37,257 nt of DNA, taken from Longimicrobiaceae bacterium (GTDB taxonomy: Bacteria > Gemmatimonadota > Gemmatimonadetes > Longimicrobiales > Longimicrobiaceae). Below, one piece after another: positions 2,181 through 37,257 of the stretch. Location of the stretch: positions 1 to 37,257 of the forward strand of contig DASVBS010000039.1 in the NCBI GenBank assembly GCA_036375715.1, read 5' to 3'. The number at the start of each line of letters is the position of its first letter. Position 1 is the first letter of the stretch. A program made the translations under genes and the position numbers. The notes under the pieces are model-generated. The model searched no databases, was not told where the DNA came from, and saw only the letters and a list, made by a program, of their open reading frames with translations.

Positions 2181-3208
2181 ATGCGGATCACCGCGCGCAT
2201 CACCTCGCTGCTCGTTCTGCTCTGCACCACCCACACCGCGGCACAGATCTCCTCTCTCGAACCGGGCGACCGGGTCCGCCTCCAGCTCGATTCGAAGGAG
2301 CAGCTGACCGGGGAGTTCGTCTCGGCCACCGACGACTCGCTGACGCTGCGGATCCACGCGGACGCCACTGCGACGACGCTACCGATCAGCGCGCTGCGGA
2401 GTCTCGAGGTGAGCCGCGGCACGCCTTCGGCCTGGAGGAGCGCGCTGAACGCCGCCGTCATCGGCGCCGGCCTCCCGGGCTCGCAGCTGGCGCTGGGGGA
2501 AGGAGCCGACGGCGGTGAATTGGGCAAACATGCTGGCTGGGGCGCCGGCTTGGGTGGAGTCGCGGGGTTCGCGCTGGGCGCGATCATCCGCGAGGAGCGC
2601 TGGTCCGCGCTGCCATTGCCGCACCGACCCGCCGGCGACGCGGCGGATAGGCTCCGCTTCCCCGCCCTGGCAATCGCCGGACGTTGGGGCGTGGTAGGCG
2701 GCCTCGCGGGTGAAGGAACGGGTGGCGGGGCCCGGGTCAGCGCGGCGCTCACGCGCCTGGGCGACAACACTCATCTGCGTGCCGAGGCCTCGTTCGAGCG
2801 TTCGACGCTGGAGAGCGGTCCTGTCGCCCGCTCCGAAGAGCTCGGAGCGATCGCCAGCCACGAAGCGATCCGTCGCTACAACTTAGGGCTCACGGTGGTC
2901 GAGAACCTCTGGTCCCTCGGCGACCGTGTCCAGCCCTACTTCACCTTTGGCCTGGGTATTCCCGGAGCCGCGTGAGCGGCGCGGTGAGATCCGCCTGCGG
3001 TCCAGCGTATCCGTGCAACGTGGGCGGAGTGGCGTACGGCTACGATTCCACTCGCAACCATCAGGGGACCTACGCCATCGGTGGCTTCGGCGTGGCGGTG
3101 AGGGTGCACGCAGTGAACACCTTCGCCGAGATCCGCTACCAAATGATCGACGACGGCGCCTACGAGCCGGGGAGGTTTGTCCCGCTATCGCTGGGCCTCT
3201 CGTTCTGA
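2181..3208 (+). pseudogene. Frameshifted outer-membrane beta-barrel protein
   Basis: ATG 2181 opens a protein with a signal peptide (MRITARITSLLVLLCTTHTAAQ). A small module follows (EPGDRVRLQL, TGEFVSATDDSLTL, LRSLEVSRG), then glycine-rich, barrel-like strands ending YFTFGLGIPGAA and a stop at 2973-2975. The +2 frame continues directly with barrel-like sequence from a GTG at 2972 (GVAYGYDSTRNHQGTYAIGG, FAEIRYQMIDDG) to a terminal ...LSLGLSF. A C-terminal Phe is typical of proteins inserted by BAM. The two halves look like one gene with a single frameshift near 2950-2975, although the GTGA overlap could permit coupled translation of two pieces. The N-terminal module resembles that of the protein encoded at 8404-8922. 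Function unknown; probably a porin-like or structural barrel. Confidence 0.7.
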
Positions 3209-3304
3209 GGAGACCTGCGACCAGGCGTGCACCACCCCACCAGGATGGACTGACGTTCGAGCGCCGAGCCCGGGCAGGCATTCCCCACCCGAGCTGTCCC
3301 AGCG

Positions 3305-4696
3305 ATGAGGCGTGTGCGCCTTGCGGCTGTATCCTCCCGGGCAGAGGCGGTGGTCCCCGCGCTGCTCCTTGCGGCGATCGCTGGCTGCACTCGATCTTCC
3401 GCGAACCAGGCGGCAGACGAGTCGATCCTCGTCCTCCCGCACGTCCACCTGATCGACGGCACGGGCGATCCGGTCCAGCGCGACGTCACCATCCTCGTGC
3501 GGGATGGTCTGATCACCGAGATTCTCCCTGCCTCAGTCTCGGATGATGCGATTCCGCCCGGAGCGACCCGACTGCCGGTGGAGGGTCGCTTCGTCATACC
3601 CGGCCTGATCGACTCGCACGTGCACCTCGCCACCTTCGACCGTGGCAACATCCTCCCGGTACTGCTGCGTCGCACCCTGGAGGGAGGCGTGACGACCGTG
3701 CGGGACATGGGCGGAAACACGCGCGAGGTCGCACGTCACGCGCGGCGCGCCGCCGAGGACACCGCGGCCTCCCCGCGCATCTACTTCTCGGCCGTCGTCG
3801 CCGGTCCGCGCTGGTTCGCCACCTACGATACGACTCGCCTGCGTTACTGGTCCGGGGACGATCCCCCTGGCCAGGCGCCCGGAGTTCGCCTCCTGGAGGA
3901 TGATTCCGGGATCGCCGCGATCGTGGAGGAAGCGCGGCAGCTCGGGGCGACAGGGGTGAAGGTCTACGCTGACCTCCCACCTGCGCGAGTTGCCGCGCTC
4001 ACCACCGCTGCGCACCGGGCAGGACTTCGGGTATGGGCACACGTGGTGGTGCCCCCTGCCCGGCCCGAGCAGCTGGTCGCGGTAGGGGTGGACGTCCTCA
4101 GCCACGCCGATCAGCTGGTCTGGACGGGGGCTCCCCGGAGTGTAGACCTCTGGAGCCGGGAGGATCGCAGCGAGCTACTGCGAGCCGTGGATCCGGAAGT
4201 GGCGACGCAGCTCAGGCAGCTCTTCCAGGACATGGTGCGGCGAGGAACACTCTTCGAGCCGACCCTGCTGGTCATGCAGATGAACGCCCCGCCCGGGACG
4301 GATGCTGCCGCGCTGGACACGCTGCCCTTCTGGGCGGTGCGGGCGGCCCGGACGGCGCACGCCGCGGGCGTGCCCATCGTGGCGGGGACGGACGCAATCG
4401 GCGCCGAGACGCCGAACCTCCATTCAGAGCTGCAATTGCTGGTGCGCCAGGTAGGAATGACGCCGCTCGAGGCGTTGCGCGCCGCCACGGTGAATGCCGC
4501 GAGGGCGCTGGGCGCCCAGGACTCGCTCGGCCGCGTCGCGCCCGGCATGCTCGCGGACCTGGTGGTGCTCCGCGCCGATCCCAGCGAAGACATCCGCAAC
4601 ACGCAGACGATCGAGCTCGTTGTGCGGGGAGGTCGCGTCTACCGCCGTGAAGGCGCGTGGGAAACGCCCGTGGGCGCGGAACCGCCACCCCGGTAG
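3305..4696 (+). CDS. Amidohydrolase-family lipoprotein (imidazolonepropionase-like)
   Basis: A 463-residue metal-dependent hydrolase of the amidohydrolase superfamily. The signal ends in a lipobox-like LLAAIAGC (Cys28). The TIM-barrel metal ligands are visible: HxH (DSHVHL, His105 and His107), a candidate carboxylated lysine in GVKVY (Lys219), His246 and His267, and the catalytic Asp363 in GTDAIG. The C-terminal composite-sandwich strand (PGMLADLVVLRADPSEDI) is typical of imidazolonepropionase/prolidase-like members. Secreted members often cleave dipeptides or cyclic amides; the substrate here cannot be told. The gene follows the barrel gene by about 100 bp and may be cotranscribed with it. 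No strong Shine-Dalgarno is seen. Confidence 0.88.
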   Translation: MRRVRLAAVSSRAEAVVPALLLAAIAGCTRSSANQAADESILVLPHVHLIDGTGDPVQRDVTILVRDGLITEILPASVSDDAIPPGATRLPVEGRFVIPGLIDSHVHLATFDRGNILPVLLRRTLEGGVTTVRDMGGNTREVARHARRAAEDTAASPRIYFSAVVAGPRWFATYDTTRLRYWSGDDPPGQAPGVRLLEDDSGIAAIVEEARQLGATGVKVYADLPPARVAALTTAAHRAGLRVWAHVVVPPARPEQLVAVGVDVLSHADQLVWTGAPRSVDLWSREDRSELLRAVDPEVATQLRQLFQDMVRRGTLFEPTLLVMQMNAPPGTDAAALDTLPFWAVRAARTAHAAGVPIVAGTDAIGAETPNLHSELQLLVRQVGMTPLEALRAATVNAARALGAQDSLGRVAPGMLADLVVLRADPSEDIRNTQTIELVVRGGRVYRREGAWETPVGAEPPPR

Positions 4697-18721: not shown

Positions 18722-20467
18722 ATGCACGATACCTCGCACCTTCGCGACATTCTCGTCCTCCTGGCCTTCGCCATCGGCATCGTGATGATCTTCCGCCGGG
18801 TCCGAGCCGGATCGGTGCTCGGCTACCTCATCGCGGGGATGATCGTGGGCCCCTACGGGCTCTCCCTGGTCCACGAGGTCGAACGCATGGCCATCCTGGG
18901 CGAGTTCGGCGTCGTGTTCCTGCTCTTCGGCATCGGGCTCGAGCTCTCCTTCGAGCGGCTGATGGCGCTCCGGCGCCTGGTGTTCGGCCTCGGCGGCGCG
19001 CAGGTCCTCATCACCGCCGTGGTCGTGTGGGTGGTCGCCCGGACGCTCGGCATGGAAAACGGCGCCGCCGTGGTCCTGGGCGGCGGGCTCGCTCTCTCCT
19101 CCTCCGCCATCGTTCTTCAGATGATGGCCGAGCGCGGAGACCTGTCTGCGCCCCACGGACGGGCCGCCTTCGGCGTGCTCCTCTTTCAGGACCTGGCCGT
19201 CGTCCCCCTGCTCGCACTGGTCCCACTCCTGGGGCAGGAGGATGCCAACGTAGCGACGGCGCTCGGCGTCGCGTTGCTCAAGGGCGTCGCCTTCGTCGTC
19301 GGCCTCACCGTCCTCGGGCGCATCCTGCTCCGACCCATCTTTCACACCGTCGCGCGGGAGAGGAGCGGTGAGCTGTTCACGGGGATCACCCTGCTCCTGG
19401 TGCTCGGCATCGGCTGGATGACGCAGGAGGCGGGGCTGTCGATGGGAATGGGCGCCTTCCTGGCCGGACTCCTGATCGCGGAGACGGAGTACGTCCACCA
19501 GGTGGAAGCGGACATCGAGCCGTTCAAGGGCATCCTGCTCGCCCTGTTCTTCATGGTGGTGGGCATGTCGCTGGACATCCGACTCGCCCTGCAAAACGCC
19601 CCCACCGTCCTGGCGTTGGTCACTGCTCTGGTGCTGGTGAAGTTCGGCATCCTGGCCGCCCTCTGTCGCGCCTTCGGGTTCGCGTGGGGTGCTTCGCTCC
19701 GGGCCGGCCTTGTGCTCTCGCAGGGAGGCGAGTTCGCCTTCGTGCTCTTCACCCTGGCCGTTGCCGCCGGCGCGCTTCCCGACAGCACCGCGCAGCTCCT
19801 GACGCTCACCGTCGGCCTCAGCATGGCCGTGACCCCGGGGCTGATGTTCGTCGGCCGCACGCTCGAGCAGCGCCTCTCACCCATCGGCGTGCCGGGCGCC
19901 AACATGCTCGAGGAGGCGGCGGACTTGGAGGGTCACGTGCTCATCGCCGGTTACGGACGCGTCGGACGCACCGTCGCCCGGCTCCTGGACGCGGGACGGA
20001 TCCCCTACGTGGCGGTGGACCGGAATGCGGAGACGGTGGCGGCGGAGCGCTCGCAGGGGCATGCCGTCTACTTCGGCGATGCCGGGCGAGACGAGGTGCT
20101 GGAGGCCGCCGGCGCGAAGAAGGCGCGCGTAGCGGTCATAACCGTCGACGACCCCAGGGGCGCTGAACGCGCGGTGCACGCGCTGCGTCACATCCGGGCC
20201 GACCTCCCCATCCTCGTCCGGGCGCAGAGCGTGGAGCAGTGCGAGGTCCTGATCAAGGCCGGGGCAACCCATGCGATCCCGGAGCTGATCGAGGGCAGCC
20301 TGCAGCTCGGCGAGGAACTGCTGGTGCTCCTCGGCGACGAGCGCAGCCAGGCCCGCGTGCTGCTCGACACCTTCCGCCAGAGGGCCTACGCGCGGTTGGG
20401 CGACATGCGTCCGCACGTGGCGCCGGCGGGGGAGGCGATTGGTGAGAAGATAGAAGCTAGAAGCTAG
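18722..20467 (+). CDS. KefB/KefC-like monovalent cation:proton antiporter (CPA2) with TrkA-N domain
   Basis: A 581-residue inner-membrane transporter. About 12 hydrophobic helices cover residues 5-390, with CPA2 hallmarks LGYLIAGMIVGPYGLSLV, LLFGIGLELSFERL, GGGLALSSSAIVLQMM, LLFQDLAVVPLLAL, FFMVVGMSLDIRL and SQGGEFAFVLF. The cytoplasmic C-terminus is a Rossmann RCK/TrkA-N domain (HVLIAGYGRVGRTVARLL, YVAVDRNAETVAAE, YFGDAGRDEVLEAAGA) that should gate transport by binding nucleotide. It likely exports K+ or Na+ in exchange for protons. The start is set at ATG 18722, where the membrane domain begins; upstream in-frame codons are Arg/Pro-rich non-protein. Confidence 0.92.
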   Translation: MHDTSHLRDILVLLAFAIGIVMIFRRVRAGSVLGYLIAGMIVGPYGLSLVHEVERMAILGEFGVVFLLFGIGLELSFERLMALRRLVFGLGGAQVLITAVVVWVVARTLGMENGAAVVLGGGLALSSSAIVLQMMAERGDLSAPHGRAAFGVLLFQDLAVVPLLALVPLLGQEDANVATALGVALLKGVAFVVGLTVLGRILLRPIFHTVARERSGELFTGITLLLVLGIGWMTQEAGLSMGMGAFLAGLLIAETEYVHQVEADIEPFKGILLALFFMVVGMSLDIRLALQNAPTVLALVTALVLVKFGILAALCRAFGFAWGASLRAGLVLSQGGEFAFVLFTLAVAAGALPDSTAQLLTLTVGLSMAVTPGLMFVGRTLEQRLSPIGVPGANMLEEAADLEGHVLIAGYGRVGRTVARLLDAGRIPYVAVDRNAETVAAERSQGHAVYFGDAGRDEVLEAAGAKKARVAVITVDDPRGAERAVHALRHIRADLPILVRAQSVEQCEVLIKAGATHAIPELIEGSLQLGEELLVLLGDERSQARVLLDTFRQRAYARLGDMRPHVAPAGEAIGEKIEARS

Positions 20468-20748
20468 AAGTTGGTCAGAAATCGGTGGCGCGAGTTGTCC
20501 GGGCCGCCGGCCACGCCCTCGCCGATGGAGACCAGCACGCGCAAGCGGGCATTGACGCCGCTCCAGTCAGTCTGAGCGTCCACTGCCCCGTGTCGGACCC
20601 CAGTTGTGCCGGTAGGTAGGCCGGGAAACTACTTGTGGACTGCATCCTGCGGATCGGCCCCGCTGAGCGGGGGGCGGGGGGTGAAATCTGGCACCTGGCT
20701 TTGGCCGCCAGCCCGCGCTCGACTACATCCCGTTCCTCTCGCGCTGCG
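20468..20748. other. Spacer between convergent genes with a TAGAAGC microrepeat
   Basis: TAGAAGC-type units repeat at the very end of the antiporter gene and just after it (about 20452-20471), including its stop codon. The rest of the 281-bp spacer shows no coding-like frame and no clear hairpin. Confidence 0.4.
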
Positions 20749-24759: not shown

Positions 24760-24790
24760 GTTATGATAACTATTGAGTTATGGATGTCAA
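24760..24790 (-). promoter_or_regulatory. Promoter and operator-like dyads of the arsR-SRPBCC operon
   Basis: On the minus strand, TTGACA (24790-24785) and TATCAT (24768-24763) are 16 bp apart. The palindrome GTTATGATAAC (24760-24770) overlaps the -10, and AACCTGACGGTT (24751-24762) follows just downstream. Both are plausible autoregulatory sites for the ArsR protein. Confidence 0.6.
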
Positions 24791-25476
24791 GTGCTTTTGT
24801 CGAGAATGGAACTGACGGCGCGGTGCTGTGCCGGGGATGGCACAGGTCGCTGCGGAAGCCGACCAGCGGTAAGTTCGTGCAGGTCACGGCGGGGCAAAAC
24901 CACACCTGCGCACTGCGGGACGACGGGGTCGTCGAGTGCTGGTATCTGAATCAATTCGGTCAGGCGCCGCCCACCCGCAGCGCGAGCAGGGGACGCTTCG
25001 TCGCGGTGGAAGCCGGCGCCTGGCATACCTGCGGCTTGCGGGACGACGGCGTAGCGGAATGCTGGGGCGGCAACGGCTGGGGACAGGCACCGGCCACACA
25101 GACCGCCTCGGTGGGCACCTACCGCCAGCTGAGCGGCGGCTACTACTTCAACTGTGCGGTCCGGAGCGACCACGCCCTGGAATGCTGGGGGAAGAACCGG
25201 GACCGCGAGGCCCGCTCCGAGCAGCGCATCGTGTTCACCACCCTGCCGCTGGATCCGAGCCTCGTGGGCAGCAGCTATCCCATCGCCGCCACCGGCGGCG
25301 GGTCCGGGAATCCCCTGAACTTCAGGAGCCTCACTCCGGAGGTGTGCACGGTCTCCGAGGGGATGGTCTCGGCGGATGCCCCGGGCACCTGCACCGTTGC
25401 GGCCAATCAGGCCGGGAACTGGAGGTACTTCCCTGCCCCGGAGGTGCGGGTCAGCTTCCAGGTCGAGGCGCCGTAG
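24763..25476 (+). pseudogene. 5'-truncated tandem copy of the RCC1-like propeller gene
   Basis: From about 24805 to 25495 the DNA is nearly identical to 27107-27797 (offset 2300-2303). It encodes the last part of blade 4, then blades 5-7 and the C-terminal Ig-like domain. The signal peptide, the PKD domain and blades 1-3 are missing. The apparent start (ATG 24763) lies inside the arsR promoter and reads MITIELWMSSAFVENG before entering the homologous part. It would give an incomplete, non-exported propeller, so it is most likely a remnant left when the front 1.3 kb of a former full-length copy was deleted. Its terminator hairpin (25585-25613) is also shared with the intact copy. Confidence 0.8.
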
Positions 25477-25584
25477 ACGGCCAGCGCGGGAAAATGGACC
25501 GAAGCACGCGGCTACCCTACCCTGGGGCGATCGACACAGCACCAGCCGCTAGGTAGTCACACCCCGCCTCTGATGCGCTCATAA

Positions 25585-25613
25585 CGAAAGCCCAGGCAAT
25601 GCCTGGGCTTTCG
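25585..25613. terminator. Hairpin after the truncated propeller copy
   Basis: CGAAAGCCCAGGC at 25585-25597 and GCCTGGGCTTTCG at 25601-25613 form a 13-bp stem with an AAT loop. The same hairpin occurs at 27885-27911, exactly 2300 bp away, as part of the tandem duplication. Confidence 0.7.
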
Positions 25614-25704
25614 CAGTAAGGGACTGCGAGGACTTGGAAAAGACTTGCTGGCACGTGGCAGGAAAAAAGGCAGGCGGCTCTGCGGATCGCGACGACGTCG
25701 TTCA

Positions 25705-25727
25705 GCGTCAGAATGTGACGCTATAAT
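25705..25727 (+). promoter_or_regulatory. -10 element with upstream dyad before the RCC1-like gene
   Basis: A perfect TATAAT lies at 25722-25727, about 100 bp before ATG 25830. Directly upstream is the inverted repeat GCGTCA (25705-25710) / TGACGC (25716-25721), filling the usual -10/-35 spacer. A -35 is not clear; the nearest candidate is TTCAGC at 25701-25706. The dyad is a candidate operator. Confidence 0.5.
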
Positions 25728-25829
25728 ACTCCAATCCGTCATCAGATTGCGGGCGCCGTTCGGTGCGCGCGGCGCGGATCCAGGAATCCTCGGACGCCCT
25801 TCCCACCTTCCTTCCACCCGGTCCGGCTC

Positions 25830-27803
25830 ATGCCTACGATCTTCGCGCGGTTCTGCAGGGCGGCACTGTGCATTCTGGCGGTTGCGGGAAGCAGTGCCTG
25901 CTCCGACAACTCCATCTCCGATCCCCAGTTGGACCCCGAGGCTTCGGGCGAGAATCGCACGGTCGCGAACGCACTCACCGTGAACATTACCGACGTACAA
26001 ACCGCGTCCGGCTACAGATACGTGGTTGCGACGGGGCTTGCGGACAGTGCAAAGGCCTACATCGATCGCCCCTGGGTCTACGACAACGTTCCCCGCTTCC
26101 TCCAGGGCGCCACCTACGTCCGGACACGACAACAAGACCGCACCTTAGACGACCCCGCCCTGCTCTCCTTCCGCATTGATCGGGAAGCGGTGGTCTTCCT
26201 CACCGTGGACCCGGGATTCGATAGACCGTGGCTCGAGGAGATTGCCGGCTTCAAGCCGGTTCGGGATAACCTTTACATCCCCAAGCAGTACGGCAACAGC
26301 CCCGGGGAGCGATCCGGTCACCTGCTCTACGCGAAGGTCTACCCTGCGAAAGCGCGCATCGTGCTGGGACCGAACAGGACAGACGGCAGCGACGACATGT
26401 ACACCGTCATCGTTCGACCCACCGCCGATGGGGTTCTCTCCGCCGGTGCGGGGGGACCGTACAGCGCGGCCGCCGGCACCATGGTCCAGCTCGTCGGGAC
26501 CGCCGAGACCGCCTCGGAGTACGATCTCGCGTTGGATTACACCTGGGATTTCGGGGATGGGCACACCGGGGTTGGTCCGAGAGCTGGACATACCTACGAG
26601 TCTCCCGGCAGCTATACCGCTCGGTTCGAAGTCACCGATGCGATGGGCAATACCGTGACCGCCACGGCGCCGGTCAGCATCAGCAGCTCTGAGCCGTATG
26701 CCGTGTCGCAGGTGAGCACGGGCGACGGCTACGCCTGCGCGGTGCGCGCAAGCGGAGTCGTCAACTGCTGGGGGCGATCCGATTATGGGGAGGCTCCAGC
26801 CGAAAAACGGGCATCCGTTGGACGCTTCGTGCAGGTGGCCGCCCACAAGGACCACACCTGCGCCCTGCGCGACGACGGCGCAGTGGAATGCTGGGGCAAC
26901 AATGTCGATGGACGGGCCCCGGCGCTCAGGACCGCCAGGACCGGAGTCTTCACACAAGTCGACGTCGGAGAGTTCCACAGCTGCGCACTACGGGATGACG
27001 GCGACAGGGAGTGCTGGGGTTCTTCCACCGAATGGTGGCTTTTTGCTGTAGGGCAGCACAGGGGCTATTACACCCAGCTCGCATTCGGCAACCGGCATGC
27101 GTGCGCGGTGAGAACCGATGGCGCGGTCGATTGCTGGGGATGGCACAGGTCGGTGCGGCAGCCGACCAGCGGCAAGTTCGTGCAGGTCGCGGCGGGGCAG
27201 AACCACACCTGCGCCCTGCGGGACGACGGGGTCGTCGAGTGCTGGTATCTGAATCAGTTCGGTCAGGCGCCGCCCACCCGCAGCGCGACCACGGGACGCT
27301 TCGTCGCGGTGGAAGCCGGCGCCACGCATACCTGCGGCTTGCGGGACGACGGCGTAGTGGAATGCTGGGGCGGCAACGGCTGGGGTCAGGCACCGGCCAC
27401 ACAGACCGCCTCGGTGGGCACCTATCGCCAGCTGAGCGGCGGAAGCTACTTCAACTGCGCGGTCCGGAGCGACCACGCCTTCGAATGCTGGGGGAGGAAC
27501 AAGGACGGTGAGGGGCGCTCGGAGCAGCGCATCGTGTTCACGTCTCTGCCGCCCATGGCCTACGTGGGCGGCAGCTATCCCATCGCCGCCGAGGGCGGTG
27601 CATCCGGCAACCCCGTGGAGCTCACCAGCCTCACTCCCGAGGTATGCACGGTCTCCGAGGGGATGGTCTCGGCGGATGCCCCGGGCACCTGCACCGTTGC
27701 GGCCAATCAGGCCGGGAACTGGAGGTACTTCCCTGCCCCGGAGGTGCGGATGAGCTTCCAGGTCGAAGCGCCGCAGACGGCCGGCGCAGGAAATGGAACC
27801 TGA
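25830..27803 (+). CDS. Lipoprotein with PKD domain and seven-bladed RCC1-like propeller
   Basis: A 657-residue surface protein. The signal ends in AGSSAC (lipoprotein Cys). Residues about 45-200 are an unrecognised N-terminal domain; about 205-285 form a PKD domain (AGGPYSAAAGTMVQLVG, YTWDFGDGHTG, HTYESPGSYTARFEV). Then come seven repeats of about 36-42 residues with the pattern C-A-L-R-D-D-G-x-V-E-C-W-G, starting at about 297. Seven repeats make one complete RCC1-type propeller. Nearly every blade carries the same Cys pair, suggesting one disulfide per blade. A C-terminal Ig-like domain (LTPEVCTVSEGMVSADAPGTC, VAANQAGNWRYFPAPEV) closes it. Such proteins are usually cell-surface binding or adhesion proteins; the partner is unknown. 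Confidence 0.85.
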   Translation: MPTIFARFCRAALCILAVAGSSACSDNSISDPQLDPEASGENRTVANALTVNITDVQTASGYRYVVATGLADSAKAYIDRPWVYDNVPRFLQGATYVRTRQQDRTLDDPALLSFRIDREAVVFLTVDPGFDRPWLEEIAGFKPVRDNLYIPKQYGNSPGERSGHLLYAKVYPAKARIVLGPNRTDGSDDMYTVIVRPTADGVLSAGAGGPYSAAAGTMVQLVGTAETASEYDLALDYTWDFGDGHTGVGPRAGHTYESPGSYTARFEVTDAMGNTVTATAPVSISSSEPYAVSQVSTGDGYACAVRASGVVNCWGRSDYGEAPAEKRASVGRFVQVAAHKDHTCALRDDGAVECWGNNVDGRAPALRTARTGVFTQVDVGEFHSCALRDDGDRECWGSSTEWWLFAVGQHRGYYTQLAFGNRHACAVRTDGAVDCWGWHRSVRQPTSGKFVQVAAGQNHTCALRDDGVVECWYLNQFGQAPPTRSATTGRFVAVEAGATHTCGLRDDGVVECWGGNGWGQAPATQTASVGTYRQLSGGSYFNCAVRSDHAFECWGRNKDGEGRSEQRIVFTSLPPMAYVGGSYPIAAEGGASGNPVELTSLTPEVCTVSEGMVSADAPGTCTVAANQAGNWRYFPAPEVRMSFQVEAPQTAGAGNGT

Positions 27804-30580: not shown

Positions 30581-30762
30581 GGGCCCGGCGCCGAGACCGC
30601 CAGCCGCCGGCCGAGCCGCATACGAGCGACGGTCCGCCGGCTGACGCCGCGCCGCCGCCACGCTCGGAAGGGGACAGCCGCTCGATCGCGCCGTCTCCAG
30701 TCCCAGCAGGTTGTTTTACCCCGAAATGTTACCCCCGGCACTCTGATCGGCAGAAACGAAGA

Positions 30763-30794
30763 AGGCGCCATGCCGCGAATGCGGCATGGCGCCT
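30763..30794 (-). terminator. Original terminator of the tRNA-Ile gene
   Basis: AGGCGCCATGCCGC (30763-30776) pairs perfectly with GCGGCATGGCGCCT (30781-30794) around GAAT. It lies 15 bp beyond the 3' end of the tRNA piece on the minus strand, where a tRNA terminator would be. The preceding 30581-30762 shows nothing coding. Confidence 0.7.
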
Positions 30795-30808
30795 CGATTT
30801 CTTATTGA

Positions 30809-30851
30809 TGGGCCTGGGTGGACTCGAACCACCGACCTCACGCTTATCAGG
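30809..30851 (-). pseudogene. tRNA-Ile(GAT) 3' half, probable attachment site
   Basis: On the minus strand this reads CCTGATAAGCGTGAGG, then TCGGTGGTTCGAGTCCACC, then CAGGCCCA. This is the anticodon loop with GAT, the 3' anticodon stem, the variable loop, a complete T-arm (GGTTCGAGTCC) and the 3' acceptor strand with discriminator A. No D-arm or 5' acceptor strand follows at higher coordinates. A piece running exactly from the anticodon loop to the 3' end is the usual crossover segment of tyrosine-integrase elements. With the old terminator on its left, the inserted island should lie to the right. Confidence 0.8.
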
Positions 30852-30970
30852 ATAGCGAAACCAGCGCGCTCGCGCGCAAGACCGCTGAAAACCTAGATTC
30901 CTTCTCGACGCCAGACCGCTTCCGCCAGCAGTTTCAGGGTGCGTTTGGCACCACGAATGACACCACGAAG

Positions 30971-31261
30971 ATGGGCGACTCGCTCGAGTTCGACAACCTT
31001 TCCGCCTACCTGGCCGCCGAGGACGAAGAGGCGCGCACCCGGCTCGCCCAGGAGCATGGCCGAAGCCTGGGCGACTGGTACGACCCCTCCGAATTCTGCT
31101 GGCAGGTTGAACCGCCGTTCGAGCGCTGCAGCGCGTGCTGGTCCTGGCGGCGCTTCCCGATCGCACAGCGCCACTTGGGCTTCGGTTGGAAGCGGTTGTG
31201 CGAGCTCCGGTGTGAGTGCGGGTGCCACGCGCGGGAGCACGAAGTGCGACGCTCTACCTAG
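30971..31261 (+). CDS. Small Cys-rich protein at the island edge
   Basis: A 96-codon frame from ATG 30971. The N-terminal half is acidic and helical (DNLSAYLAAEDEEARTRLAQ). The C-terminal half carries six Cys and two His (FCWQVEPPFERCSACWSWRR, then LCELRCECGCHAREHE), suggesting a zinc-binding knuckle. I recognise no family, and there is no Shine-Dalgarno. The upstream in-frame codons are read-through of the tRNA piece and should not be counted. Confidence 0.42.
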   Translation: MGDSLEFDNLSAYLAAEDEEARTRLAQEHGRSLGDWYDPSEFCWQVEPPFERCSACWSWRRFPIAQRHLGFGWKRLCELRCECGCHAREHEVRRST

Positions 31262-31380
31262 CGCCGATTTGCAGGTTGGGCTTCCGTACGTCGATACTTC
31301 CTCCTTGCGGAACTAACTCGCGCTATGCACCGTAAGATGACCTCCAGACGGCCAGCCATCGTATTGAGACTCCGAGGCTG

Positions 31381-31776
31381 ATGGGTCGCCGGAGCAGAGG
31401 TAAGCGCGCCGGCCGGGCGCGGCCAAAACAGGTGCAACACCCGGTATCGCACTCTCCCCAAAGTCCGACCGCGTCCTGGGCCGACGTCGAGGTTCTCCAC
31501 AGACATGAGAAATGGGGATGGGCCCAGCTCAGAGCCGCAGCCGTCGGAACGACTCAGCTGTTTCTTGCCATTCTGATCCTCATCGTGCCGGGGACCTTGT
31601 GGGAGCTGATACTGACCGTCCTCCCTCCGGTCGGCATGATCGACCGAATTCTCGTGCACGCCTTGTTGTTCGTGGGTTCGCTGGTGTTTTTCCTGCAGTT
31701 CGCCTACACGATCTGCGTGGGAGCCGCACTCAGCTTGAAGAAATCTAGGCGGGCCCTTAAAGAAGGAGGTGACTAG
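31381..31776 (+). CDS. Small membrane protein A of a coupled pair
   Basis: A 131-residue protein starting at ATG 31381 with a basic N-terminus (MGRRSRGKRAGRARPKQ). Two hydrophobic segments at about 57-80 (LFLAILILIVPGTLWELILTV) and 88-115 (ILVHALLFVGSLVFFLQFAY) are followed by a basic tail. It ends TAG, sharing its G with the GTG of the next gene. I recognise no family. Its position on the island beside restriction-modification and ShosTA-like genes makes a defence or mobile-element role possible, but the sequence gives no direct proof. Confidence 0.6.
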   Translation: MGRRSRGKRAGRARPKQVQHPVSHSPQSPTASWADVEVLHRHEKWGWAQLRAAAVGTTQLFLAILILIVPGTLWELILTVLPPVGMIDRILVHALLFVGSLVFFLQFAYTICVGAALSLKKSRRALKEGGD

Positions 31777-32396
31777 TGTCTGCTGCCGTCCATCTGACGC
31801 CGATTGAGCGGCTCGCGTTTGACCTGCCGAGACACGCGCTCAGCTCCTTCAACGCTAGCCTCAAGTCGTACGTCCTGACCATCGTGATCCTGGGTGCGGA
31901 GTTGATGCTGATCCGATCCGACTATCTTCTTCTCGTCCCTCTCGGCATCGTCATCTTCGCCATCCATGGCTCCGTCGCACTGTCCCTGGTCCGGCATGTG
32001 GTGGCGCTGCTCAGAGACATCCGGCGAGGCATCGATGGGGAGGACCCGCTGTACCTCACGAGAGAGCGAGTCGCTGACGCTATGTCTCGTAGGGAAGAGA
32101 ACCGCAAACTGCGCTGGGCGACCCGTCTCATCCTCTTCCTTGGATATGCAACGCCGATCTATCCGCTCTCGAAGTACGTGTTTCTACAGGCTTACGACGT
32201 GCACAGTGAGTACTTTGAGGCCGCAGACGAGAGCAAAGCGAGGCAACGGTGGCAGGGGGAACTCGGCTTGGGCGCGGAGGTAGAGGTGCACTCTGCTCCG
32301 CCCGCCAACCAGGCTTGGACCAACGTCGCTCGGGCGAGCGCGGCGTACGCAGTCAGTTCCTTCAACGATCCAGGCCGCGCTCGGGCGCACGCCTGA
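31776..32396 (+). CDS. Membrane protein B of a coupled pair
   Basis: A 206-residue protein starting at GTG 31776, with a very strong AAGGAGGTGA ending about 5 nt upstream inside the previous gene, and a 1-nt stop/start overlap. Hydrophobic segments: YVLTIVILGAELMLI and YLLLVPLGIVIFAIHGSVAL (together about 30-72) and WATRLILFLGYATPIYPLSK (about 113-132). Between them is a charged, probably cytoplasmic stretch (LLRDIRRGIDGEDPLYLTRE). The C-terminal 65 residues are soluble and charged. No family recognised. A strong bidirectional terminator follows. Confidence 0.65.
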   Translation: MSAAVHLTPIERLAFDLPRHALSSFNASLKSYVLTIVILGAELMLIRSDYLLLVPLGIVIFAIHGSVALSLVRHVVALLRDIRRGIDGEDPLYLTRERVADAMSRREENRKLRWATRLILFLGYATPIYPLSKYVFLQAYDVHSEYFEAADESKARQRWQGELGLGAEVEVHSAPPANQAWTNVARASAAYAVSSFNDPGRARAHA

Positions 32397-32464
32397 AAAG
32401 CGCCAGCGGCAACTTAACGAAGACCCTCAACGAAGCTCCTCTCGGCGCTGCGAGGGGTCAGGAC

Positions 32465-32502
32465 AAAAGGAGCCCCGGCCATTTTGAGCCGGGGCTCCTT
32501 TT
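32465..32502. terminator. Strong bidirectional intrinsic terminator
   Basis: AAAAGGAGCCCCGGC (32465-32479) pairs perfectly with GCCGGGGCTCCTTTT (32488-32502) around an 8-nt loop, with T-runs on both strands. It separates the membrane-protein pair from the convergent restriction-modification genes. Confidence 0.9.
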
Positions 32503-32554
32503 ACTGCCGGGCGCCCACAAAGGTCGCTGCAGTCACCACCAGGACGCAGCACGC

Positions 32555-33289
32555 CTACTGAGCGCGGCGTATGCTACCCTCCACCGCCTCATAAAAATCG
32601 GGGTTCCGCTCAGCGACAGCCTCCACCAGCTTATCGAAAACCCTCTCCAGCGACACAGGCGTCAAATGGTCGCCCACCTCGTATGCTGTCACACTTGAGC
32701 CAAACGGACTGGCGTCGAGAAGCAGGATGTACAACACCTCGAACTGCTCATCTCGGCCTGCTGGATCGCCGCGCCCTGTAAAAATGCGCAGGCGGTTGTG
32801 GGCATTCAGAAAAGTCGAACGTCGCTTCAGCGTGTCGTCGGTTTGAGCGCCCTTGTCCAAGAAGATCAGGCCGGCAATGACGGCGTAGGGGAACCGCCGG
32901 TGCAGCGTCACCGCTTCCATCAGCATGTCGCCCCGGCGATTGATCAGGTTCTTCTGGAAGTTGTTGCTCCTGCCGTCCCTGAAGTTGATGGACTTGATGG
33001 ATACGGCGAGCAGCAGGCCGGATTCTTCGGTCGCCCAGGTCACATCAACCTTTTTCGCACCGATCCCGCCGCTCATTCGACGCTCCGCCCCCGAACCCCC
33101 CAAAACGCCAGGGGGCGCGGGCCTCGCTCCTCTCATCCCGCGGTGGCGCAGCTCCTCCGCGACGGCGAGCGCAACGACCTCCGAAACCTTCTGCGAGTAT
33201 TGCTGCTTGAGATGGCGAGGGGCGTTGTCGTCGGGCTTGGGTGGAAGGCCGTTGAGTGCGTTGATCAGGAGGTCGTCAATTCTTGCCAC
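32555..33289 (-). CDS. Putative type II restriction endonuclease, PD-(D/E)XK-like
   Basis: A 244-residue protein directly behind the adenine methyltransferase gene; the two overlap by 14 bp. The start is set at GTG 33289, which has GGAGGAAG just upstream. The likely nuclease core is GGIGAKKVDVTW (Asp82) followed by TEESGLLLAVSIKSINFRDG (Lys99), a D-x(n)-x-x-K arrangement of beta strands. A helical stretch (NNFQKNLINRRGDMLMEAVT) and a hydrophobic strand (YAVIAGLIFLD) follow. Gene order and motif make it the cognate restriction enzyme. Recognition sequence unknown; identification rests partly on context. Confidence 0.65.
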   Translation of the reverse strand: MARIDDLLINALNGLPPKPDDNAPRHLKQQYSQKVSEVVALAVAEELRHRGMRGARPAPPGVLGGSGAERRMSGGIGAKKVDVTWATEESGLLLAVSIKSINFRDGRSNNFQKNLINRRGDMLMEAVTLHRRFPYAVIAGLIFLDKGAQTDDTLKRRSTFLNAHNRLRIFTGRGDPAGRDEQFEVLYILLLDASPFGSSVTAYEVGDHLTPVSLERVFDKLVEAVAERNPDFYEAVEGSIRRAQ

Positions 33290-34931
33290 CGCTTCCTCCG
33301 CCCCTGGTTGCTCGCCGCGCAAACAAGAACTCGCGGGCCCCGCGGATCACCTGTATGTCACGATGGGTGAGGCCCATGCCCTTGGTCAAGATCACTCGGT
33401 CCACCAGCTTTACGGCCGCGGCCAGGTTATTCTGGCGGAGCGCTTTGGCCAACTGCGGCCGCAAGGCTCGGAGCTCCGTAGCACACGCGTTCACGAGCTC
33501 CGGACTGGGCACAGGGAGCTTGTCGGCCTCGCGCGGCTCCAGCTTCAGCATGCCACCGCCGTACGCACGACCGACCATTTCCGCCCCTAGCATGGTGAAA
33601 CTGTTAATCGCGGCCATCGGCAGCAGGTCCTGCCCCAGTTGTCGCACCTCGCGCCGCAGGAAGACGCCGTATAGCGAATTCAGGTGGCGCAGCCTGGCCT
33701 GATTGGTAACCAGGCGGGGCCGCTCATAGTCCATGTAGGTCAGCAGGAGGTCCGGCACCTGGACGAGAGGCACGCGGTACCAGGGTGTTCGCACCCTGCA
33801 CTTGTAAGCCAGGTGAACCCCAGCCGCTTCACCTTCTGCCACGTAATTGGCGGCCGCCTTCGACAGAGGATTCTTCCGGGGATAGAACAGGTACCCCGCG
33901 GCGCCGGCTCTGACCAGTTCCTGCCACGCCCTTTCTGTGAAGGTCAACCCCCGAAGGTGGCGTGAGCCCGGTGGTGAGATCCGCACCAGGTCACGCTCCG
34001 GCAGGCCGCTGGCGGCGACCTGCTCGCCCGTGCGGCTGAAATAGCGGTTGTTGCCGGTCACAGCCCCCAGCGATGTTTCGCCCCAGGCAAGCAGGGGTGA
34101 AATCTCTTCGCGGTTTGTCAGCTCGCGATAGAGATCGACTGCTGTGTCATCGAGGAGCGCTGGGGTCCACTTTCCTTCGGCGTCCGGCTGGTACTGTTCC
34201 CAGCCTTCGACGTCTAGAGATGCAAGCGCAGCTGCATCTCGCACCTGCAGTACTTCGAAATGCGGCGCCGGCCCCATCCCCTCGGCGAGGAGTAGCACCA
34301 CATCCTCCAGCACTCCCGGAAACACGAGCTCCTCGAACAAGATCAGCCGGATCCGACCGAAACGGTTCAGCAGGAAGCGCCGTACCTCGGCAGCGTAGTT
34401 GACTGTCAGGAGTTCGGCGGGGAGCACCAGCGCCATGCGGCCGTCAGTCTTCAGGAAGTCGCTCGCATGAATGACGAACGGCGCCCAGGAGCTGGCAAGC
34501 CGGGTTAGCCGCACCCCGTGACGCAGTGCTCGCTCGCTGGCCCGGACCCGAGCCTCGCCAGTGAACGATTGGTAACGGACGTAGGGGGGATTGCCCACGA
34601 CCGCATCATACGATCCGGGAGCTTCAAACTCGAAGAAGTCCCCTGCGATAACGGAGCCCTGCAGCCCGGCGCCGGCCAGGAGCTCGCGTGCGCGAGCAGC
34701 AGATGGTTCGTGCAGTTCGATGCCCCGCAGCTGATCGCCATGCACCGGCCGGCCGCCAGCCAGCTCCTGCAACCGCTCACCTGCTGGGATCAGGAAACTC
34801 GCTTCGCCACACGAGGGCTCTAGGACCTTGTCAGATGGCGTGCGCACCGCCCATGCAACTAGGTGCCGGCTCAGCTCCGGCGGGGTAAAAAACGCACCGC
34901 GTTGCTTCCGTTGCCGCTGCGAGTCCGACAC
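33276..34931 (-). CDS. N6-adenine DNA methyltransferase (type II, Eco57I/TaqI-like)
   Basis: A 551-residue enzyme that should methylate adenine in a specific DNA sequence, using S-adenosylmethionine. Motif X RGAFFTPPELSRHLVAW is at about residues 11-27, motif I VLEPSCGEASFL at 36-47, and the catalytic NPPY (motif IV, YDAVVGNPPYVRYQ) at 114-117; this order marks a gamma-class enzyme. The C-terminal half (about 260-500), with ISPPGSRHLRGLTFTERAW, AGYLFYPRK and RVPLVQVPDLLLTYM, resembles the target-recognition region of Eco57I-like enzymes. GTG 34931 is preferred because AGGTGAG lies about 10 nt upstream; GTG 34970 is possible. The partner nuclease overlaps its 3' end. Confidence 0.92.
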   Translation of the reverse strand: MSDSQRQRKQRGAFFTPPELSRHLVAWAVRTPSDKVLEPSCGEASFLIPAGERLQELAGGRPVHGDQLRGIELHEPSAARARELLAGAGLQGSVIAGDFFEFEAPGSYDAVVGNPPYVRYQSFTGEARVRASERALRHGVRLTRLASSWAPFVIHASDFLKTDGRMALVLPAELLTVNYAAEVRRFLLNRFGRIRLILFEELVFPGVLEDVVLLLAEGMGPAPHFEVLQVRDAAALASLDVEGWEQYQPDAEGKWTPALLDDTAVDLYRELTNREEISPLLAWGETSLGAVTGNNRYFSRTGEQVAASGLPERDLVRISPPGSRHLRGLTFTERAWQELVRAGAAGYLFYPRKNPLSKAAANYVAEGEAAGVHLAYKCRVRTPWYRVPLVQVPDLLLTYMDYERPRLVTNQARLRHLNSLYGVFLRREVRQLGQDLLPMAAINSFTMLGAEMVGRAYGGGMLKLEPREADKLPVPSPELVNACATELRALRPQLAKALRQNNLAAAVKLVDRVILTKGMGLTHRDIQVIRGAREFLFARRATRGGGSGGKN

Positions 34932-35131
34932 TGGGATTTGCTCACCTGGAGTGAGTGGACCGCGGCGCACAGAGACGTTAATGGCCCATGCCGCGGCTTA
35001 AGACGAGACCGTCGTCGCCAAGCAAACCTAAGCGCCTCGACCCAACCTGCAATAGACCTTGCGCTCCTAGCGTCCGGGGGGGCACGGGCGTACTATCTTT
35101 CTCCTTCACCCATGCCCACGGACGATCCAGG

Positions 35132-35437
35132 ATGCAGACCCGCCACGGCGCCGCGATGAGCTTCCCGCTATCCTCTCGAGAGGCTGAGCTGACCGCCGAA
35201 CTCGTACGGGAGCGCCTCCGGCATCACCTCCTGCTAGAGCAGCTCTCGGCCGTAGGAACGCCGGCCATGCTGGGGTACTCTCCGGACGCCGTCTGGATCA
35301 CCGCCGGCGGGCAGGAGCTCGCACGGATCCCCTGGCTGGGCTGGTACGACACTCGTGAGGAAACGAGGGAGGATCGGGCGATTCTGGTAGTGAGCCGGCT
35401 TCTGACGACCTGGAGGGAAAACGGGGCGGCTCTGTGA
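35132..35437 (+). CDS. Small hypothetical protein upstream of the ShosTA-like module
   Basis: A 101-residue frame from ATG 35132 (ATG 35156 is also possible). It has an amphipathic N-terminal helix (AELTAELVRERLRHHLLLEQ) followed by a strand-rich piece (PDAVWITAGGQELARIPWLGW) and an acidic turn. I recognise no family. It ends about 100 bp before the DprA-like gene, which has its own promoter, so it may be independent. It is divergent from the methyltransferase gene. Confidence 0.5.
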   Translation: MQTRHGAAMSFPLSSREAELTAELVRERLRHHLLLEQLSAVGTPAMLGYSPDAVWITAGGQELARIPWLGWYDTREETREDRAILVVSRLLTTWRENGAAL

Positions 35438-35466
35438 GCCGGTGCGTACACCCCAAAACGTAAGCC

Positions 35467-35501
35467 TTGTCGGGCCGGCTGATCTTCGGTATATCTTCGG
35501 T
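35467..35501 (+). promoter_or_regulatory. Promoter with overlapping direct repeats before the DprA-like gene
   Basis: TTGTCG (35467-35472) and TATATC (35490-35495) are 17 bp apart, about 45 bp before ATG 35539. ATCTTCGGT occurs twice in direct orientation (35482-35490 and 35493-35501), one helical turn apart and covering the -10. This is a plausible autoregulatory site. Confidence 0.6.
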
Positions 35502-35538
35502 GGGGTCGGAACTCGGCCATTCGACACGAGGGAACACC

Positions 35539-36480
35539 ATGCACCCACGTGATCTAGTCCGCGGCCATCGCGAACACGAGTTGGCCGCTATCGTTGCGCT
35601 CCTACGGAAGCAGGTCGTTACCCCTTATCGGCTATCCGCGATGCTTGAGTATCGCGGATCCGCTGTGGCGCTCGCCCAGCTCTCGGAGGAAGACCGGCTG
35701 TTCAAGCCCTCCGCGCCGACACACGATCTGATCGGCGCGGTGACGCCAGAGGATCTAACGGCTTCGATTCGCGACGTTCGTCGCTGGCTGCAAGCGGGCC
35801 GTGATGTGCGCTCGGTACTCGACGATCACTACCCTCGCTCGCTGCGCGAGATTTTCAACCGGCCGCCTCTCCTCTTCATCGAGGGGCAGTTTGACGAGGC
35901 CCGCGACTCCCATTCTGTGGCCATTGTGGGGGCGAGGCGCGCCAGCTCGGAGGGAAGGCGCCGGGCCGCACGGATGAGCCGTGCAGCGGTGGAGGCCGGC
36001 CTATGCGTCATGTCGGGGCTCGCGGCCGGGATCGATACGGCCGCGCACTGGGCGGCCCTTGAGGCAGACGGTCGCACGGTCGCGGTAATGGGAACCGGGA
36101 TCGATCGAATCTACCCCGCGGAGAATCGCCCGCTCGCCGACGCTATTATGTCCGCTGGAGGGTGTTTGATCTCCCAGTTCTTCCCGTCGCAGCAACCCAC
36201 GCGGTGGACGTTCCCGAATCGGAACATCACCATGTCGGGGCTGGCGCTGGCGACGATCGTCATTGAGGCGAGCGAGACGTCAGGTGCGCGGATGCAGGCT
36301 CGGGTGGCACTGCAGCACGGCAGAACGGTGTTCCTGCTGGAGTCGCTCGTGAACGAGCACGCCTGGGCGCGCAAGTACGTGACCGAGGGTGCCTACGGCA
36401 CGCACGCCATCATGATCTCTTCTCCGGAGGAGGTGATTGAGCGCCTCGCGGCTGCCCCCGCTATGAGCCTCGTGGCGTAG
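35539..36480 (+). CDS. DprA/Smf-family protein, ShosA-like antitoxin candidate
   Basis: A 313-residue protein with the DprA Rossmann domain: SVAIVGARRASSEG (about 126-139), VMSGLAAGIDTAAHWAALEA (157-176), TVAVMGTGIDRIYPAENRPLA, then WTFPNRNITMSGLALATIVI and the SGARMQARVALQHGR segment. The N-terminal 110 residues are helical and lack an obvious SAM domain; no C-terminal DprA winged helix is seen. DprA normally loads RecA on incoming single-stranded DNA. Here it is followed 4 nt later by a phosphoribosyltransferase-domain gene. That pairing is the hallmark of ShosTA, where the DprA-like protein is the antitoxin. Such an isolated variant on an island is unlikely to be the housekeeping copy. Confidence 0.85.
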   Translation: MHPRDLVRGHREHELAAIVALLRKQVVTPYRLSAMLEYRGSAVALAQLSEEDRLFKPSAPTHDLIGAVTPEDLTASIRDVRRWLQAGRDVRSVLDDHYPRSLREIFNRPPLLFIEGQFDEARDSHSVAIVGARRASSEGRRRAARMSRAAVEAGLCVMSGLAAGIDTAAHWAALEADGRTVAVMGTGIDRIYPAENRPLADAIMSAGGCLISQFFPSQQPTRWTFPNRNITMSGLALATIVIEASETSGARMQARVALQHGRTVFLLESLVNEHAWARKYVTEGAYGTHAIMISSPEEVIERLAAAPAMSLVA

Positions 36481-36484
36481 CTGC

Positions 36485-37240
36485 ATGGCGGACGCCCGAC
36501 AAGAATACGAGAACATTCGCGTCCTGCTCCGTAGCATCCCCCGGTTCGAGGCTTATCAGGTCTGTGATGAATGCCTCGGACCGGTCAACGGACACTCTAG
36601 CTGCCTCTCTTGCCATTTGATTTTCCGGGCTGCCCCGTGGCAGCTCAGCGGCGCCGTGGTTCCGCTCTCCGTAGCGCAGAACCCGAGCCCCTGGTATACG
36701 CGTCTCGTAGGGTACAAAGGAGCACGACCCGAGTTCGGGCTGCCGATGGCGGCCCTGCTCATGCTGTCGGTGTTGCATCATCGATCCCGAATTGAGGAGC
36801 TTCTCGGCGGGGCGCCGGATGCCTTCACGGTCGTCCCCTCCACCCGCGGTGTCCCCTTCAACAAGCAGCCGCTCCGCAACGTCCTCAACCTGATCGTTCC
36901 TTGGCGCAGACAGCTGGTGCAGCTGCTTGAGCACGATCCGAACGTGAAGGTCCCTCGCCGGAGTTACCGGCCAGAGGCCTTTCGGCCCGTTGGGTCAGTT
37001 GAAGGTGCGCGAGTGGTGCTAGTCGAAGACCTGTGGGTATCCGGCGCGAAGGCGGTCAGTGCGGCGGGAAGCTTGATCCAGGCAGGCGCTCACCGAGTTG
37101 TCATCGTGCCGATCGCCCGGATGATCGATCCGCCAGGATCTGCGTTCTTCGCGGCGGACCATCCTTACTTCGAGTGGATGATGGAAGAGCACGATTACAA
37201 ACGGTGGCCACGGGAGGGGGTGCCCCGCTACGACTTCTGA
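36485..37240 (+). CDS. Zinc-ribbon phosphoribosyltransferase, ShosT-like toxin candidate
   Basis: A 251-residue protein. Residues 27-43 form a four-cysteine zinc ribbon (CDEC...CLSC, with Cys27, Cys30, Cys40 and Cys43), as in ComF. The type I phosphoribosyltransferase core includes TVVPSTRGVPFNKQPLRNVL and the PRPP loop RVVLVEDLWVSGAKAVSAAG (about 176-195; the acidic pair is Glu181-Asp182). The second loop position reads WVSGAKA instead of the usual TTGAT. The gene starts 4 nt after the DprA-like gene, so they are cotranscribed. In ShosTA the PRTase protein is the toxin that halts growth on phage infection. A competence-type ComF role is the alternative, but no competence genes are nearby. 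The coding sequence is complete, ending 17 bp before the window edge. Confidence 0.8.
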   Translation: MADARQEYENIRVLLRSIPRFEAYQVCDECLGPVNGHSSCLSCHLIFRAAPWQLSGAVVPLSVAQNPSPWYTRLVGYKGARPEFGLPMAALLMLSVLHHRSRIEELLGGAPDAFTVVPSTRGVPFNKQPLRNVLNLIVPWRRQLVQLLEHDPNVKVPRRSYRPEAFRPVGSVEGARVVLVEDLWVSGAKAVSAAGSLIQAGAHRVVIVPIARMIDPPGSAFFAADHPYFEWMMEEHDYKRWPREGVPRYDF

Positions 37241-37257
37241 TGCGATGCCCAGCTCTG

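Follow-up and report, generated by a model that had tools for sequence, protein, structure and literature searches.

The window analyzed here is a stretch of 37,257 nucleotides from a Longimicrobiaceae bacterium and comprises the whole of contig C39 of a draft assembly (87 contigs, 4.37 Mb, 95% complete). It was noted that a short tRNA-derived piece, with a hairpin on its left, is followed on its right by a putative island whose visible portion consists of a tandem repeat, two membrane protein genes, and genes similar to known defense systems. The features of this locus are given below in order of position.

30762 to 30795, minus strand: intrinsic-terminator-like hairpin with a 14-15-bp stem and a T-rich tail (-36 kcal/mol, z-score -8.8)
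30809 to 30851, minus strand: displaced 3' part of tRNA-Ile(GAT), from ARAGORN, uniqueness, shuffles, and identity to relatives
30852 to 37257, no strand assigned: visible part of the putative island, 6.4 kb, at the end of which the contig stops
30947 to 30969, plus strand: tandem repeat of 12-bp period, a putative integrase arm-type site from its position and from the fragments of relatives
31381 to 31776, plus strand: predicted membrane protein 1, 131 aa, without a family match
31776 to 32396, plus strand: predicted membrane protein 2, 206 aa, without a family match
32555 to 33322, minus strand: putative restriction endonuclease, 255 aa, without a family match, adjoining and overlapping the methyltransferase gene
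33276 to 34970, minus strand: type II (Eco57I-like) DNA adenine methyltransferase, 564 aa (PF22837, PF02384, PF07669; PDLC03301)
34988 to 35437, plus strand: reading frame of 149 aa without a family match, which would be cargo if it is a gene
35467 to 36480, plus strand: DprA-like ShosA, 337 aa (PDLC03961 ShosA, PF02481)
36485 to 37240, plus strand: phosphoribosyltransferase-like protein, 251 aa, with weak matches, ShosT-like by position

The minus-strand sequence of 30809-30851, CCTGATAAGCGTGAGGTCGGTGGTTCGAGTCCACCCAGGCCCA, contains the anticodon loop CTGATAA (GAT), the 3' anticodon stem, the variable loop, the T arm, the 3' acceptor strand, and the discriminator A. It begins one base ahead of the anticodon loop and ends at the discriminator base. 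The first-pass annotation had described this piece as the 3' half of a tRNA-Ile gene, running from the anticodon loop and lacking its 5' half, and both points held up under closer examination. The 42-43 nt agree base for base with the 3' part of the intact tRNA-Ile(GAT) genes of relatives G039 and G037 (0 mismatches), no complete tRNA was found in the window by ARAGORN, and no tRNA-Ile 5' half was found adjoining the fragment or elsewhere in the assembly at up to 3 mismatches. Homology to the intact gene stops at 30851, or at 30850 if the shared G is due to chance. The fragment has a single copy in the 4.37-Mb assembly and is the only such fragment in the window at up to 3 mismatches, and 100 shuffled sequences yielded 0 matches at the same threshold. 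Of the tRNAs in its own assembly, the most similar one reached only 81% identity over the whole piece, so the fragment does not derive from another tRNA present there. The only reading frame(s) over the fragment (30818-31261) had no family match and looks spurious, and no conserved protein domain is overlapped. Judged from its sequence, the fragment would constitute the homology block of an attachment site, and crossover would be expected within the anticodon loop.

The hairpin lies just past the tRNA 3' end, its stem being followed by the T-rich tail, and is probably the original tRNA-Ile terminator. The first-pass annotation had read it as an old terminator retained to the left of the fragment. 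The hairpin itself is real by its folding z-score, but it does not on its own reveal which side of the junction is older, since many regenerated tRNA copies also have a hairpin. On the opposite side, 96 bases inside the fragment, lies the tandem repeat GGCACCACGAAT/GACACCACGAA, and a whole-genome search found no copies of this repeat elsewhere in the genome. Strong tandem repeats with a period of 11-13 were found in 11 of 29 fragment flanks compared to 110 of 2900 control segments (3.8%; Fisher p = 7e-9, with kinship among the genomes not accounted for). These repeats usually lie 95-120 bases into the flank, and the window repeat is found at an equal distance. Its score was 9/10 and approximately 2% of the window segments score as high, so the weight of this repeat lies in its position, the score alone not being rare. 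From their sequence and placement, we infer that these tandem repeats are putative integrase arm-type sites. Motifs similar to GAAAACCTAG at 30887-30896, which stands between two GACCGCT copies (30880 and 30914), were also noted in the flanks of other fragments and, for several intact tRNA-Ile genes, in the 5' leader.

We sought to characterize the genes to the right of the fragment. GC content in 30852-37257 was 0.633 compared to 0.637-0.688 in windows of equal length to the left, a weak island signal. The methyltransferase matched PDLC03301 with an E-value of 1e-166, and its closest relatives found in a search of 84,980 species carry annotations of Acidobacteria (57% identity) and Propionibacterium (52% identity). 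The adjacent, overlapping position of the gene at 32555-33322 makes it the probable restriction endonuclease partner of this methyltransferase. The ShosA half of the following pair was strongly matched (PDLC03961, E-value of 1.9e-66; PF02481, E-value of 1.3e-61), while the putative ShosT half had weak phosphoribosyltransferase matches (PRPP synthetase/GntX, E-value of 5e-4; PF00156, E-value of 0.21) and no PADLOC match, ShosT included. Relatives of the ShosT-like protein were absent from the viral contigs searched and were represented on plasmids by two distant matches (29%). Of 153 other genomes of the order, 4 contain relatives of the membrane and nuclease proteins, weak ones at best. The first-pass annotation had regarded everything from 30852 onwards as cargo, and the island reading is supported by the near absence of the membrane and nuclease genes from the order and by the annotation of the methyltransferase relatives as Acidobacteria and Propionibacterium. 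Neither a relaxase or origin of transfer in the visible 6.4 kb nor an integrase on the window contig was found. A search with the island-side flank in 395 genomes of the phylum returned its own copy and chance-level matches only, and the junction of fragment and island was not found in viral contigs. Elsewhere in the window, at 24763-27803, two adjoining frames share a near-identical RCC1-like segment (near 24800-25476 and 27100-27790), suggesting a duplication.

The flank together with the fragment was then used as a query against 154 genomes of the same order, of which 129 matched, essentially through the tRNA part. Some of the distinct sites were intact tRNA-Ile genes, and others were 3' fragments that leave the gene at a common base, with dozens of tRNA-Ile fragments across the order broken at this one base. 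In 25 distinct fragments, identity to the intact gene was 98-100% and fell to background within 2-3 bases of CTTATCAG, which indicates one crossover site located in the anticodon loop. This loop is among the subsites at which tyrosine integrases act (PMC4383910). Several genomes have two or more such fragments near each other, a pattern that repeated use of a single insertion site would produce. These comparisons show that islands commonly use tRNA-Ile(GAT) as their insertion site in this order, and that the anatomy of the attachment sites recurs.

Additional arrangements were encountered among these genomes. Three contigs (G100:C239, G125:C211, and G151:C1) contain two or three tRNA-Ile 3' fragments 0.7-6 kb apart in one orientation, as though small inserted segments had been stacked. 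In G028:C13 and G036:C71, an intact tRNA-Ile lies between a convergent pair of integrase genes, with one member on either side. The complete genome G022 has a fragment 1.28 Mb from its intact tRNA-Ile and in the opposite orientation (C1:3682610 and 2398177), with an integrase on the 3' side of the fragment, and this looks like an attP-type junction whose element resides elsewhere in the chromosome. A nearby intact partner is thus not guaranteed by a fragment, and the exact right-hand end of the window island is a prediction.

A complete example was found in contig C191 of G019, a member of the same family. A fragment at 2873 is followed by an island of 17.6 kb, an integrase domain at 19867-20367, and an intact tRNA-Ile at 20542-20615, so that fragment, island, tyrosine integrase, and regenerated tRNA-Ile have the predicted order and orientation. 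The tandem repeat TTTGGACACCC-A-(A/T)TTGGACACC is present inside both ends of this island, the one with the fragment and the one with the integrase. The genes of the G019 island include a MobA/VirD2 relaxase, a NikA-like protein, a kinase, a phosphatase, ThiF/E1, and a UvrD-helicase, the last four of which resemble defense genes. The relaxase and the NikA-like protein indicate that this island is probably mobilizable. An intact gene and a fragment in direct orientation on one contig were also observed in G140 and G150 (17 and 8.8 kb apart, respectively), and no recognized integrase was found on either contig. Comparing the flanks of fragments and intact genes, shared 11-mers were informative in G019 and not generally, since 21 of 100 cross-genome controls also shared one.

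The contig ends before any counterpart of this right-hand architecture. Pattern and tRNA-family searches recovered no tRNA-Ile(GAT) among approximately 50 tRNA genes of the assembly; this is an expected essential gene, yet it is absent. A 16S rRNA gene was likewise not detected in the assembly by a search that also missed the gene in 5 of 14 control genomes. In five genomes of the same family (G005, G006, G007, G009, and G015), tRNA-Ile is located approximately 80-100 bases after the 16S gene, and several contigs break there, while four others (G003, G004, G008, and G011) have no 16S just upstream of tRNA-Ile. In the former five, neither tRNA-Ala nor 23S was seen over the up to 12 kb of downstream sequence that was read, which suggests that their 16S and 23S genes are unlinked. 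The regenerated tRNA-Ile of the window genome would plausibly lie in unassembled DNA beside a 16S gene.

Two short contigs of the assembly, C70 and C16, which carry the two non-Xer integrases of the assembly, were considered as the missing end and set aside because they had no 20-mers in common with the window and no matching attachment site. The integrase of C16 is a distant relative at most of the tRNA-Ile-adjacent integrases (approximately 25-32%). That contig contains a 33-nt 3' piece (G000:C16:2317-2349) that is 88% like the genome's tRNA-Thr(CGT) and lies approximately 100 bases from the tyrosine integrase (2443-3651), perhaps forming another tRNA-targeted element. No empty site was seen in the related genomes, which include none of the same genus. 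Synteny comparison showed that the genes of the left flank stand beside tRNA-Ile in no relative examined, and for this reason the empty-site comparison yielded no site.

Three other explanations of the junction were weighed against these observations. The one that survives best, which we nevertheless regard as unlikely, is that the fragment marks a remnant or accretion scar, either a decayed element end or a junction within a tandem stack, so that the DNA to its right would not be one island ending at an intact tRNA-Ile. The closely spaced fragments of G100, G125, and G151 (two or three within 1-7 kb) and the distant, integrase-adjacent fragment of G022 are in agreement with this possibility, as is the lack of a visible integrase in the 6.4 kb. 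However, an integrase would be expected at the opposite end of the island, the window holds one fragment only at up to 3 mismatches, the adjoining arm-type repeat is intact, and the cargo frames are open. It is very improbable that the junction is an assembly chimera joining two places that share the 43-nt repeat. The draft is fragmented and 43 nt can confuse small-k assemblies, but the right side presents an arm-type repeat at the expected distance rather than a tRNA 5' half, the left side is without an integrase, both sides appear as in a true displaced-fragment junction, and relatives independently show junctions of the same class. We give least credence to the piece being tRNA-like by chance or by function, for example as a tRNA pseudogene copy that has nothing to do with integration, because even though the piece is short and pseudogene fragments occur in bacterial genomes, it had no shuffle matches, is identical to the tRNA-Ile(GAT) of relatives, breaks at the recombination-prone anticodon loop in common with other fragments, and has a terminator and an arm-type repeat on either side.

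The locus is therefore very probably the displaced-fragment end of a tRNA-Ile-specific integrative element that extends to the right from 30852. The first-pass annotation had proposed the left end of a tRNA-Ile island running rightward, and the directly observed features agree with that proposal, namely the fragment itself, its break at the same base as in relatives, the position of the 12-bp repeat, the gene content, and the architecture found in relatives such as G019. According to the proposed mechanism, an element with an integrase, presumably of the tyrosine type, would have recombined with a tRNA-Ile(GAT) gene at its anticodon loop. With the tRNA 3' part that it brought along, the element would have restored the gene at one end of the insertion, while the original 3' part and its terminator would have been pushed to the other end, now 30762-30851, if the insertion took the direction supposed here. 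Everything from 30852 rightward would then belong to the element, with the putative arm-type repeat first and the cargo following, the latter comprising two membrane proteins, a type II restriction-modification pair, and a ShosTA-like pair. Beyond the contig end, unassembled DNA would contain the integrase and the regenerated tRNA-Ile(GAT), and probably also a 16S rRNA gene upstream of the latter. The circle junction predicted by this model would read integrase-side terminator, the 43 nt, and then GATAGCGAAACC. By analogy with the G019 island, the island would most likely be an integrative and mobilizable element.

These results locate, to the base, where chromosome gives way to island in a lineage that has received little study. 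Such an island would explain the presence of restriction-modification and ShosTA-like genes at this position, and it predicts the content of the DNA past the contig end. The recurring attachment-site anatomy at tRNA-Ile(GAT) could be used for mapping more defense islands in the order, and it was noted that insertions beside 16S are easily lost from draft assemblies. A broader reading, which we offer tentatively as possible rather than probable, is that tRNA-Ile(GAT) serves across the order as a widely used dock for diverse mobilizable defense islands. In the family, this gene would follow a 16S gene apparently unlinked from 23S, so that the islands would insert where the 16S transcription unit ends, a point at which insertion would split a conventional 16S-Ile-Ala-23S operon.

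Insertion into tRNA genes is a well-known route of island acquisition, and the element is of a known kind. Among the 3919 islands in Islander, 3760 have 3' fragments and 2083 use the anticodon site (PMC4383910). The window shares with the 3'-fragment class at this site (site A) the displaced 3' tRNA fragment broken at the anticodon loop, and its island likewise lies on the side of the missing 5' half. Islander looks for a tRNA end fragment displaced from the intact gene, as which the exact 43-nt piece qualifies, and for a fragment clear of conserved protein domains, as is the case here. It further demands that the intact tRNA and an integrase share a replicon with the fragment (PMC4383910); for the window both would lie beyond the contig end, while the intact cognate tRNA at the other end in the same orientation was found in relatives G019, G140, and G150. 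Arm-type repeats near the core, another mark of attachment sites, are represented by the putative repeat at 30947-30969. The G019 island shares with the window island the same tRNA, the same crossover, a 12-bp tandem repeat just inside the fragment, and defense-like cargo, and differs in carrying other cargo genes and in being complete with integrase, relaxase, and NikA-like protein. The ShosTA pair, as represented by PADLOC ShosA, has the same order of a DprA-like gene and then a phosphoribosyltransferase-like gene, whereas the partner in the window shows weak phosphoribosyltransferase similarity rather than a PADLOC ShosT match. Lastly, ICEMlSym of R7A is a tyrosine-integrase element with short arm-type sites, TGKTGGTATC, in its attP (PMC11963761), and the window repeat, which reads TTCGTGGTGTC on the other strand, is similar in size and motif. 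ICEMlSym differs in targeting tRNA-Phe, in being conjugative, and in its length of approximately 500 kb, and its likeness to the window is one of size and motif of the arm-type sites.
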